Shown here: positions 24,572 to 28,054 of the stretch, piece by piece | Layout: each line of letters begins with the position of its first letter | How positions within the stretch are numbered: the stretch's first letter is position 1 | Origin: Geobacteraceae bacterium | Lineage (GTDB): Bacteria; Desulfobacterota; Desulfuromonadia; Desulfuromonadales; BM103 | Reading direction: 5' to 3' | NCBI GenBank assembly: GCA_024641085.1 | Contig: JAHEDT010000001.1 | Coordinates: forward strand, 62,001-126,000 | Length of the DNA: 64,000 bases | Notes under the pieces: generated by a model | What the model was told of the DNA's origin: nothing | Databases searched by the model: none | The model's input: the letters and a program-made list of their open reading frames with translations, nothing else | Position numbers and translations under genes: made by a program

Positions 24572-25477
24572 ATGTCCAAACGGCTTAAAATAGGTTTAGC
24601 CCTCGGCGGCGGGGCGGCCCGCGCCTTTTCCCATATCGGGGTCATCGATGGGCTGACCAGGCACGGCATCCCCATCGATATCGTGACCGGCACCAGCATG
24701 GGGGCGATTATCGGCGCCATGTATGCCTCCCAGTCGGACGTGGCTGCGATCAAAGCACGCTTCGCCGCCTATATCGAGAGCGAAGAATTTGACGAATCGG
24801 GATTCAACTTCTTCAAGGAACTCGATTCCCATGACGAGGGGATTCTGGCGGAAATGGGGCGGCGGGCGCGGCGCGGCGTGTTCAACACCTTGATGATCAC
24901 CAAGACCGCCCTGGTCAACGAGAAAACCGCGGCGAGCAGTTATGCCTTCCTTCTGGATGATTTAAAAGTCGAACAGACCCGCCTCCCCTTCGCTGCTGTT
25001 GCCCTCGACCTGGTGAGCGGCGAACCGGTCGTTCTTGATCGCGGGCGGCTGCGCGAAGTGATCGCAGCGTCCTGCGCCATGCCGGGGGTGCTCAACCCGG
25101 TCAAACTCGAAGGCCGGCTGCTGGTCGATGGCGGCTGGACGGAAACCGTCCCGATCAGAGCCGCCCGTCAGCTTGGGGCCGATTTTGTCATCGCCGTCGA
25201 CGTCGGTGATGCCCTGAGCGCCTTCGAAACACCGCGCAACGCGCTCGATGTTATCGCCCGTGCCGACTCCATGGCCCGGAACGCCCTCAACAAAGAGCAG
25301 CTCAAAAGCGCCGACGTCGTCCTCTCGCCGCAAAACGGGGTGACCCACTGGGCCGATTTCTCCACCACCACCCAGGCGATTGCTCGCGGTGAAGAAGAGG
25401 TCGACCGGCAGATTGACGTTTTGCAGCGCGCGCTCAAGAAGGCGCGGCGGCAAAGTTGGCTTGGTTGGCTTGGTTGA
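24572..25477 (+). CDS. Patatin-like phospholipase family protein (RssA-like)
   Basis: A 301-residue cytoplasmic acyl hydrolase. The oxyanion-hole GGGAARAFSHIGV is at about 12-24, the nucleophile is Ser42 in GTSMG, and the catalytic Asp is D186 in VDGGW, giving the Ser-Asp dyad. Size and motif spacing match RssA/YlbK-type proteins, whose substrates are unknown. It lies 50 bases after the GAF gene. A hairpin with T-run that could end transcription is 210 bases downstream, at the start of a repeat. Confidence 0.9.
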   Translation: MSKRLKIGLALGGGAARAFSHIGVIDGLTRHGIPIDIVTGTSMGAIIGAMYASQSDVAAIKARFAAYIESEEFDESGFNFFKELDSHDEGILAEMGRRARRGVFNTLMITKTALVNEKTAASSYAFLLDDLKVEQTRLPFAAVALDLVSGEPVVLDRGRLREVIAASCAMPGVLNPVKLEGRLLVDGGWTETVPIRAARQLGADFVIAVDVGDALSAFETPRNALDVIARADSMARNALNKEQLKSADVVLSPQNGVTHWADFSTTTQAIARGEEEVDRQIDVLQRALKKARRQSWLGWLG

Positions 25478-25689
25478 ACAACGGGGGCGCTCAAAAGTGC
25501 CGCTTGATTTCAAGTGCCACTCAAACGACTGACAAAGTTCACCGTGGTTGCATTGCTCAAAATCCAGTGAAGGATCGAAACACCCCTGGCGTGAAACAAT
25601 TCCATCTATTGAACTCTTCGGCTTTAATCTTCATCAAATTCTAGCTGTCATATACCGCATAAAACCAGACTGCATTTATCAATAAGCCG
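25478..25689. other. Intergenic region, no gene seen
   Basis: About 210 bases between the patatin gene and the first repeat copy. It contains short open frames with no family features and a T/A-rich stretch. I see no promoter or gene. Confidence 0.4.
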
Positions 25690-25914
25690 GGGCAACAGAG
25701 AGCCAATCTGTTGCCCTGTTTTATTTTCGCTGTTGCTTCTTTTGACCTCCCCTTCCCAAGGCGGTTTGTCCAGCCGGTAGCGAGCTTCGGTGACCGATAG
25801 ATCACAAGCAAATCAAACCAAAACCGGCAGGTCGCGTCCCGCCGGGCGCCGTACTCTTTTGCCGGCCCAAAAGAGTCCGCAGAAAAGAGCCTGGCGCTGC
25901 GCTTGGCATGTCTT
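25690..25914 (-). repeat. Hairpin-ended dispersed repeat, copy 1 (inverted relative to copy 2)
   Basis: Outer end: GGGCAACAGA (25690-25699), 7-base loop, TCTGTTGCCC (25707-25716), followed by a T-run. Middle block 25825-25868 contains GGCGGGACGCGACC-type sequence when read in reverse, and the inner end is AAGACATGCC in reverse (25905-25914). All three blocks recur in copy 2 in the opposite orientation. The hairpin could also end transcription from the patatin gene. Confidence 0.75.
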
Positions 25915-26340
25915 ACGCGTGATCGCTTGGCACCGAGCGCCGGTACGGCAGGACAACCTGCCGTCTACGCTTCGACCACCCTGGCGGGGGCCCTCCTGTC
26001 TGGCCCCCGGATGGTCTGCGGGTCGCACAATAGAACCTTGTACGCGCTACACGCGACGCATGATTGGGGTCAGGTCTACACATTTCACAAATTTAGTACC
26101 AGAAGCGTGAAGAGAAAAGTGTGAGGTGTGACAAATCAAACACCAATCAAACTCAACGACTTAGAATCGGTTTGGGTTTCTCGTTCTGTGTACTTTGATA
26201 GCAGTAGAAAAGTTGATAATACCGGCGGCATGACGTTCGGAGACCCCGGTGGCCCGGTAAAATAGGGCCCCTTAGTGCTGCTAAAGCCAAAGTGCGCGGT
26301 CACAGACTGTGCTGTCTGTTTATCCGTAGAATGACGGCGC
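25915..26340. other. Unique spacer between the inverted repeats
   Basis: About 425 bases with no convincing gene. It contains TGGGGTCAGGTCT (about 26065-26077), which I associate with surroundings of REP-associated transposases, but no transposase is left. Reading frames here have no family features and look like shadows of repeat sequence. Confidence 0.45.
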
Positions 26341-26578
26341 AAGACATGCCCACCGCGAGGTGACGGCACTTTTGCATACGTTTGCTGCCGGGCAAAAGTA
26401 TGGCGCCTGGCGGGACGCGACCCGCCGTTTCTACAATCGTGAGGCGCGAAGCGGGAGGCGAAAAAAGACAAAAACACCATCAAAGCCTACGGTCCCGGCG
26501 GTGGCAACAGGAGGAGAAAAAGCTGAAAAAGGGAAAGGCGGACATTCAAAAGGGCAACAGATTGACTCTCTGTTGCCC
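26341..26578 (+). repeat. Hairpin-ended dispersed repeat, copy 2
   Basis: Starts with AAGACATGCC (26341-26350), has the middle block 26386-26427 (TGGCGGGACGCGACC), and ends in GGGCAACAGA (26552-26561), loop TTGACTC, TCTGTTGCCC (26569-26578). The terminal hairpin differs from the reverse of copy 1 at only one of 27 bases (loop). Sequence between the blocks has diverged. Confidence 0.75.
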
Positions 26579-26791
26579 TGCTGCTGACTCAACCCGCCCT
26601 TGATGGGTCCGCCGCATACATTCGATCCCCCGACTTCGTATCCCCTCAAACTCAAAAAGCCGCCACCGCCTAAAGATACGCAGGGTTTGTCAATAATCTG
26701 AGGGGCTCTTGATTTCAAGGACCCCTTTCTTCGAGGGTTATCTTCATTGTCGTGTTTGTGTTTGGCCGTCGGGTAAAACCAAGATAACGCG

Positions 26792-28054
26792 CTATGGTGC
26801 GGAGGGCTGCTCGTAACCGGTCTGGGGATGCAAGACGGAGACCGGAGCCGCTTGTCGCAGTTGTTCCCGTACCAGGGCTTGCAGCCGCAACCCGGTCAGA
26901 AATGCGGCACCGATCAGCAGCAGGATCAGCAAGACCACCCCATGCCAACCCCAGGCCCCGTAGCAGAACCCGCCGCCGGTTCCTGAGATACTCGACCCGA
27001 GGTAGTAAGCAAACAGGTACAGCGACGAGGCCTGGCCACGAGCCCGGTCGGCCAGCAAACCGACCCAGGCCGACGCAATCGCGTGGGTGATGAAGAAGCC
27101 AATGGTAAACACCACAATGCCAAGAATGACCGCAAAGAGCTGGGAAAACAGGGTCAGCAGCAGTCCCGCGGCCATGACGGCCAGCGCGGCAAAGAGAATC
27201 TGGCTGCGGCCGAATCGCTCGACCAGCCGCCCCATGACGCTGGATCCGCAGGCCCCGAAGGCGTAGGCGAGGAAGATCAGTGCCACCTCGGCCTGGCTCA
27301 GGCGGAAGTCGGGCCCCAGCAGGCGGAAGGTAACATAGTTGTACAGGGTGACGAAGCCGCCCATGCAGGTGAAGGCAAGAAAATACAGGCAGAGCAGGCC
27401 GGGATTGCGCAAATGGCCGATCAGCGAGGCGGTCAGTTGACCAAGGCGCAGCGGCCGGCGTTGGAAGTTGCGCGACGGCGGCAGCAGATAAAGAAACAAA
27501 ACTCCCAAAAGCAGGCTGATCAGTCCAATGCCGACGACTGCCGAGCGCCAGGACATCAGTTCGGTCAGCCAGGCGGTCAGGATGCGTCCGGTCATGCCGC
27601 CGCAGGCGTTGCCGGCAATATAGAGCCCCATGGCGCTACCCAGGGCTCGCGGCTCGATCTCCTCATTCAGGTAAGCCATGGCAACCGCCGGAACCCCGGC
27701 CAGAACCACTCCCTGGACCAGGCGCACGCCCAGCAGCGCCGGCAGCGACGTACTGGTGGCGCCGGCCAGGGCGAGACATGATGCCAGGAGCACCGCGAAC
27801 CCCATCATCCCGCGTCTTCCCCAGGTGTCCGACAGAGACCCTGAGAGGGGCAGGGTGATTGCCAGAGCGAAGGTGGCAAAGGACAGGGAGAGACTGGCAA
27901 CTGCCGGAGAAATCCCGAATTCTCTGACCAGGTTGGGGAAGAGCGGCTGAAACGTGTAGAGCGTTGAGAAGGTCACAAAACCGGCAAAAAAAAGTGCCAG
28001 GTTGGCCCGCCGGTAGTCCTTGCTGCCCCGCTCGATATATTGGTTGCCGGTCAT
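26792..28054 (-). CDS. MFS transporter (YnfM-like)
   Basis: A 420-residue major facilitator protein with twelve predicted helices. The loop motif between helices 2 and 3 reads SGSLSDTWGRRGMM, and the second half repeats the pattern as GRLVERFGRSQ. The early part RANLALFFAGFVTFSTLYTFQPLFP resembles the YnfM/arabinose-efflux group of drug or metabolite exporters. It is divergent from a LysR regulator 118 bases away, which probably controls it. The gap contains an inverted repeat at 28134-28148. Substrate unknown. Confidence 0.9.
   Translation of the reverse strand: MTGNQYIERGSKDYRRANLALFFAGFVTFSTLYTFQPLFPNLVREFGISPAVASLSLSFATFALAITLPLSGSLSDTWGRRGMMGFAVLLASCLALAGATSTSLPALLGVRLVQGVVLAGVPAVAMAYLNEEIEPRALGSAMGLYIAGNACGGMTGRILTAWLTELMSWRSAVVGIGLISLLLGVLFLYLLPPSRNFQRRPLRLGQLTASLIGHLRNPGLLCLYFLAFTCMGGFVTLYNYVTFRLLGPDFRLSQAEVALIFLAYAFGACGSSVMGRLVERFGRSQILFAALAVMAAGLLLTLFSQLFAVILGIVVFTIGFFITHAIASAWVGLLADRARGQASSLYLFAYYLGSSISGTGGGFCYGAWGWHGVVLLILLLIGAAFLTGLRLQALVREQLRQAAPVSVLHPQTGYEQPSAP

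Follow-up and report, generated by a model that had tools for sequence, protein, structure and literature searches.

A gene-less repeat with pseudoknotted ends between convergent genes of a Geobacteraceae bacterium, probably a non-autonomous mobile element located at transcription terminators

The locus described here raises the question of what occupies an intergenic island in which inverted, hairpin-ended repeats enclose no gene. The island belongs to the window, that is, the whole stretch of 64,000 nucleotides from a Geobacteraceae bacterium that has been analysed. On its left lies a patatin-like gene (24572-25477, plus strand) and on its right an MFS-type transporter gene (26792-28054, minus strand), which converge on it; both names were judged by eye from the frames. 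These are the only gene-like frames around the island, in agreement with its preliminary description, made from the sequence alone, as gene-less. We propose that the island is probably a mobile element that is non-coding and non-autonomous, has ends recognised by their structure and resides at terminators between genes. The element is multicopy, its ends are paired inward and form covarying pseudoknots, it is present in some genomes and absent from orthologous sites in others, and terminator-like hairpins stand on both sides of several copies.

A repeat search yielded three inverted pairs in the island, 25690-25742/26526-26578 (53 nt, 79%), 25822-25858/26394-26430 (37 nt, 86%) and 25899-25918/26337-26356 (20 nt, 85%), and the end block AAGACATGCC was found at 26341-26350 with its reverse complement at 25905-25914. 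The inverted pair of hairpin-ended repeats noticed earlier is real, in that its end block, middle block and hairpin could all be located, but it represents the two ends of one element and not two repeats; the middle block is likewise present, with a length of 37 nt in the ungapped search instead of the 44 first given. Comparison with one hairpin inverted confirmed that the two outer hairpins differ at one of 27 bases (GAGCCAA vs GAGTCAA). The core of the element spans about 25817-26435, and sequence outside the core is common to some copies only. Each core end, read inward, comprises two tandem H-type pseudoknots, PK1 and PK2, followed by a small hairpin. PK1 is a GC hairpin, the loop of which pairs with the bases directly 3' of the hairpin, and PK2 is an A/T-rich hairpin, the loop of which pairs with bases beyond a short A-rich linker (Table 1). 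The left outer hairpin, which a terminator scan flagged, reads as the inward-facing intrinsic terminator of the patatin-like gene.

Table 1. Features of the island, in coordinates of the window
Feature	Position	Strand	Basis
Left outer hairpin GGGCAACAGA-gagccaa-TCTGTTGCCC, then T-rich tail	25690..25716	+	Inverted copy at 26552-26578
Left end module, inward reading	25817..25908	+	Covariance-model match G000:C151:87817-87908; covariation
Left PK1	stem 25826-25831/25838-25843; loop 25832-25837 pairs with about 25846-25849	+	Model match, covariation
Left PK2	stem 25853-25861/25868-25876; loop 25862-25867 pairs with 25887-25891	+	Model match, covariation
Left GC hairpin, outward reading, plus TTTTGGTTTG; terminator-like	25824..25845	-	Terminator scan; conserved A columns
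Conserved internal block, hairpin GGGGGCCC...GGCCCCC	25961..26019	+	14-copy own-genome alignment
RAYT terminal-repeat sequence inside the element	26066..26098	+	GGGGTCAGGTCTACACATTTCACA at 26066-26089; inverted around Y1_Tnp gene on C116
Conserved internal block, hairpin GGCCC-ggtaaaata-GGGCC	26236..26280	+	14-copy alignment
Right end module, inward reading	26347..26435	-	Covariance-model match G000:C151:88347-88435; covariation
Right module parts	small hairpin 26351-26362; loop partner 26364-26368; PK2 hairpin about 26374-26402; PK1 hairpin 26409-26427	-	
Right outer hairpin, inverted copy of left, inward-facing, terminator-like	26552..26578	-	Repeat search

Further similarities are found outside these features. 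A second pair of similar hairpins, built around CTTGATTTCAAG and lying further out at 25496-25521 and 26701-26726 (direct, 77% identical), surrounds the island as though an older terminator, too, had been copied, perhaps in a nested insertion. The stretch 26646-26700, which lies outside the right hairpin and ends in GGGTTTGTCAATAATCTGAG, is repeated beside other hairpins of the same genome (L034:1360-1414, L025:1245-1413), and in related genomes a stretch of this kind, GTTGACAAACCC, is again seen close to elements.

A mobile repeat, as suggested in the preliminary description, called for further copies, and these are present both in the host genome and in its relatives. The host genome (3.5 Mb in 151 contigs) contains 90 BLAST matches to the island and, at 12 places, the exact outer hairpin, against none for a reversed control; fourteen complete or long partial copies from it have been aligned. 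A covariance model, for which 47 diverse ends were used, identified 41 end modules in this genome. These counts lie far above chance. Element matches were obtained in 21 of 22 genomes of the family, and a scan of the phylum under strict filters gave matches in at least 8 of 297 genomes, five of the eight being the host genome and others of the same order. The interior of the element is alike within one genome, and between genomes mostly the ends alone are similar, as expected of recent spread in each genome; gene conversion could add to the likeness of interiors within a genome. Head-to-tail arrays with units of about 505 and 640 bp occur in two genomes of the order; adjacent units of the arrays at L145 (G199:C4:25000-38000), L143, L144 and L147 (G246) differ in the PK2 stem yet stay self-complementary. 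Just outside several core copies (left flanks of L006, L008 and L011) a hairpin GGGGACACTC...GAGTGTCCCC is repeated. At the end of contig C63 of the host genome (L358:1898-2176), an element end of different appearance, in which the hairpin ACTTTG...CAAAG stands close to a GC-rich stretch, is separated by about 250 bp from a GGGCAACAG hairpin, and part of the intervening sequence recurs inverted in another genome (L365, G016); this end perhaps represents a second subfamily with the same hairpin.

Covariation among the 47 ends argues for the fold: 88.3% of the cells are paired vs 76.4% after shuffling, double changes occur in 126 cells vs 43.7 in shuffled alignments and at most 35 in slid controls, and 15 pairs change on both sides. 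The loop contacts were assessed by permutation tests, which count related copies as independent: the PK2 contact has a complementarity of 3.82 nt vs 2.28 nt permuted (73 distinct cases; maximum of 200 permutations, 2.82), and the PK1 contact 3.49 vs 3.01 nt (59 cases; maximum 3.24). Loop and partner are swapped together in examples such as CGGCA/TGCCG, AAGCC/GGCTT, GGTCC/GGACC and AGCCG/CGGCT. It counts against the fold that the two end modules of the window, folded alone, are no more stable than shuffled sequences (z -0.7 to -1.8); the core as a whole is more stable (z -6.9), which would hold for every inverted repeat. The left PK1 stem of the window contains one A-C mismatch, and the left PK2 contact there is short.

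Most ends lie in inward-facing pairs. The model search covered 83 loci, and the pairing count was made on 193 of its 196 matches, with the three weakest omitted and 10 nested loci dropped. Neighbouring ends less than 700 bp apart face inward in 62 cases, outward in 25 (array junctions and similar) and in the same direction in 5; altogether 124 ends are paired and 50 are single, many single ones lying where a contig stops. According to gene calls made with a home-made codon score instead of a published gene finder, 53 of 76 flanking genes point towards the element, and among the 33 complete cases, 16 are convergent and 3 divergent; for comparison, the 56 neighbouring gene pairs of the window include 15 convergent, 27 tandem and 14 divergent ones. 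For the host genome copies (L001-L010), 16 of 17 called flanks are directed at the element.

Three elements in the genome of one relative (G014) are absent at the orthologous sites of sister genomes (G015, G016, G011 and G018). At the first (L071), G014 carries hairpin, element and hairpin, and the same gene pair in G015 and in G016 is separated by a single palindromic, terminator-like hairpin. At the second (L072), G016 has a single hairpin and no element, and G014 carries that hairpin on both sides of its element; at the third (L075), a single hairpin is found in G016, and G011 and G018 have other, unrelated short terminators without the element. The hairpin loop at L071 and L072 is locus-specific and common to the filled and the empty site. 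Because of these differences at orthologous sites, together with the dispersed gene-less copies, the non-autonomous mobile repeat proposed in the preliminary description remains the best reading, and we infer that gain is the probable direction, with loss as the alternative, at the sites compared.

The hairpin copies at filled sites are mostly mutually inverted (L071, L072, L043 and the window copy, as well as L002 over 41 bp; L004 has them direct), which is not what a classic target duplication gives. In 150-base flanks of 38 elements, the inverted flank match averages 12.25 vs 8.68 for mismatched controls, and 6 of the 38 elements exceed the 99th percentile of the control in inverted and 4 in direct orientation, a comparison that very short duplications would escape. 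Hairpin duplication is therefore evident for some elements only, and L078 and L079 lie between two differing, unmatched terminators. The two outer hairpins of the window are most simply regarded as two copies of one terminator hairpin with the T-rich side facing the element. An empty counterpart of the window site was not found among the relatives that have a close homologue of the left gene and whose DNA downstream of it was read, as gene order is not kept there; in a same-genus relative, the contig stops at this homologue.

The same hairpins could alternatively be the outermost repeats of the element itself, in which case the single hairpins of relatives would be excision scars, a reading that we regard as doubtful but worth weighing. 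The left and right hairpin loops are mostly mutual inverted copies (L001, L002, L043, L071, L072), and in the host genome no hairpin was shown to be solitary, most adjoining elements and the rest lying near contig ends. However, several apparently solitary hairpins occur in G016 and many elements lack this outer hairpin, and the loop is specific to the locus and the same as that of the single hairpin in the relative (L071 in G015, L072 in G016).

In the favoured reading, a mobile element inserted at a terminator, the core end modules lie in inverted orientation and each, when single-stranded, would form two pseudoknots in succession and then a small hairpin. The folded ends would be recognised, by structure, by an enzyme encoded elsewhere, and the element would settle at intrinsic-terminator hairpins, chiefly downstream of genes, the terminator hairpin probably being copied during insertion. 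In this subfamily, the T tract that follows the GC hairpin on the outward reading makes the element look shielded by terminators in both directions.

Whether the folded strand would be recognised as RNA or as single-stranded DNA has been addressed from the composition of the ends, which allows either. When the ends are read inward, A occupies columns 4-7 in 96 to 103 of the 123 distinct ones, so that on the outward reading the GC hairpin is followed by T and each core end resembles an outward terminator. Mismatches among the 2088 cells of the two main stems number 21 A-C and 4 G-T when the inward strand is read, equivalent to 21 G-U and 4 A-C on the outward one; this lopsidedness has a binomial probability of 0.0009 if cells are independent, which they are not, and corresponds to 11 vs 4 columns. 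The bias leans towards the outward strand as the folded one. Wobble amounts to about 1% of the cells, which is little for an RNA, and the idea that the stems act as DNA without wobble has been softened accordingly, wobble being rare but biased to the outward strand. A scan for promoter-like sites in the element gave 0 vs 0.7 expected.

The element might alternatively be kept for the benefit of the host as a structured RNA or 3'-end insulator. Between converging genes it would then serve both as a bidirectional terminator and as an mRNA 3'-end module, and its dispersal would be a by-product. The bias to gene 3' ends, the combination of the outward hairpin and T tract with inward outer terminators, and the G-U-like outward mismatches are as this explanation would have them. 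We nevertheless judge it unlikely: orthologous gene pairs without the element get by with a short terminator, read-through would already be stopped by the host terminators on either side, the scarcity of wobble is atypical of RNA, and interiors that are similar within a genome and little between genomes are as expected of recent spread.

Mobilisation of a REPIN- or BIME-like element by a RAYT (Y1 HUH) transposase acting on single-stranded hairpins seems quite improbable. The TGGGGTCAGGTCT stretch, which had been thought to recall the surroundings of such transposases, is indeed the terminal repeat of a RAYT of the host genome: GGGGTCAGGTCTACACATTTCACA is inverted on both sides of the Y1_Tnp gene on contig C116 (C116:44426), has many further standalone copies in the genome and is present in the middle of the core. 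This central position, away from the element ends, gives no support to the proposed link with RAYT as the mobiliser, and the RAYT on C116 is not flanked by the end sequence of the element. The second of the two RAYT loci of the host genome (L355) lacks a GGGGTCAGGTCTACACATTTCACA copy. In favour of RAYT are the inverted hairpin ends, the location at gene ends and the low wobble, all suiting a single-stranded DNA substrate, the presence of its terminal repeat in the element, and Y1_Tnp matches in 16 of the 22 family genomes, including 10 of 11 of good quality. Against these stand four of the six family genomes without a Y1_Tnp match, which have four or more element matches each, all four being less than 90% complete: G003 (86% complete, 27 element matches), G008, G017 and G018. 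Two half elements, L019 (C151:26409-26702) and L015 (C20:5024-5343), have one boundary close to the RAYT terminal repeat inside the element and look as though broken or recombined at that place. Inspection by eye recognised no transposase in the frames flanking either half element or in those flanking a stray copy of the RAYT repeat (L028).

Group IIC introns target terminators, and both they and integron attC sites associate with terminator or folded-strand hairpins. Copying by a reverse transcriptase, as a SINE-like or group II-derived retroelement, would accord with the structured ends and the terminator position, and is nonetheless highly improbable, as no RVT_1 match was obtained in G014 or G016, two genomes that are 99% complete and rich in elements, by a search that a past or divergent enzyme would escape, and the element matches neither group II introns nor any other Rfam family. 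The element shares the association with hairpins with group IIC introns and attC sites and differs in having no intron or Rfam match and in the absence of a reverse transcriptase from some carriers. Among the candidates considered, no transposase, recombinase or other mobiliser of the element was identified.

The best Rfam hit to the element is below threshold (WLE3, E 0.023); the three matches above the gathering threshold are riboswitches close to copies but outside the elements examined, namely fluoride (L186:2627-2691), lysine (L242:5024-5192) and SAM (L002:29-159), apparently unrelated to the element. A plasmid or phage origin has been ruled against, since the window core has no match in plasmids or phages and the Pseudomonas and Mucilaginibacter copies none in plasmids. 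An autonomous, gene-bearing version was considered for an inward pair 11 kb apart (G288:C30, L153), the only distant inward pair inspected for genes, and finds no support there, the frames it holds looking by eye like ordinary chromosomal ones.

Searches of open-licence PMC papers with six core strings and descriptive terms returned nothing recognisable as the element. In excerpts of the genome papers of Geobacter metallireducens and G. bemidjiensis, multicopy intergenic sequences are mentioned, one set having ends that form inverted repeats (PMC2700814, PMC2996986); like the element, these are intergenic and multicopy, a likeness of descriptions only, and it is possible that the element already figures there as an unexplained supplementary alignment. 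An excerpt of another paper refers to 250 mobile or repeat candidates (PMC11109978). REP sequences, as characterised in an excerpt of PMC3733652, are short palindromes tagged GTAG (or CGTC) that occur in inverted pairs. The element resembles REP and REPIN (BIME) sequences in its palindromic units in inverted pairs, its copy number, its lack of genes and its location between convergent or tandem genes, but its ends, in place of palindromes of 20-40 bp, measure about 90 bp and contain two pseudoknots, its length is about 400-900 bp and the RAYT terminal repeat lies inside it. With bacterial MITEs, such as Chunjie of Geobacter uraniireducens (PMC10969869, compared by its description in an excerpt), it shares shortness, the absence of coding capacity, terminal inverted repeats and multiple copies. 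Unlike MITEs, it has structured covarying ends, occurrence in several phyla, and matched hairpins in place of a short direct target-site duplication, its 150-base flanks matching better in inverted (6/38) than in direct (4/38) orientation; moreover, no parent transposon with its ends was found, L153 being the one distant inward pair inspected. Mobile repeats that encode nothing are already known; new, at least as a variant, are the pseudoknotted ends, the terminator position and the wide spread.

The spread beyond the phylum has been explored with a loose pattern of the second hairpin and its linker, silent on the loop contact, that was run over a named genome collection and matched at least 119 stretches. 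Among the matches listed are Bacteroidota, Clostridia, alpha-, beta- and gammaproteobacteria (Pseudomonadota), Desulfuromonadales, Campylobacterales, Patescibacteria and Elusimicrobia, and in 75 distinct cases among them the loop contact measures 3.89 nt vs 2.09 nt permuted (maximum of 300 permutations, 2.6). At 8 of the 80 loci listed, about 360-550 bp separate the motif from a second, inward-facing one that has a contact of its own (9 pairs); these loci belong to Oscillospiraceae, other Clostridia and Mucilaginibacter. The matches may all descend from one family, or the fold may have arisen repeatedly. It can be suggested, tentatively and with less than even confidence, that they reveal a class of gene-less mobile elements which has so far escaped recognition and occurs in many bacterial phyla, with ends known by fold and not by sequence, one pseudoknot doubling as an outward terminator in the present subfamily.

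If this is right, a repeat that is unnamed in several phyla gains a definable fold and a recognisable landing site, the terminator hairpin, and the presence/absence polymorphism between sister species makes the life cycle of the element testable. As its copies are often found at contig ends here, the reading would, if true, also account for intergenic repeats of the kind at which draft assemblies break. Recognition of structure would be separated from recognition of sequence in a mobile element, which might point to a new enzyme. In that case the element would be one part, the one now in view, of a transposition system in which a new enzyme acts and transcription terminators are the landing sites.
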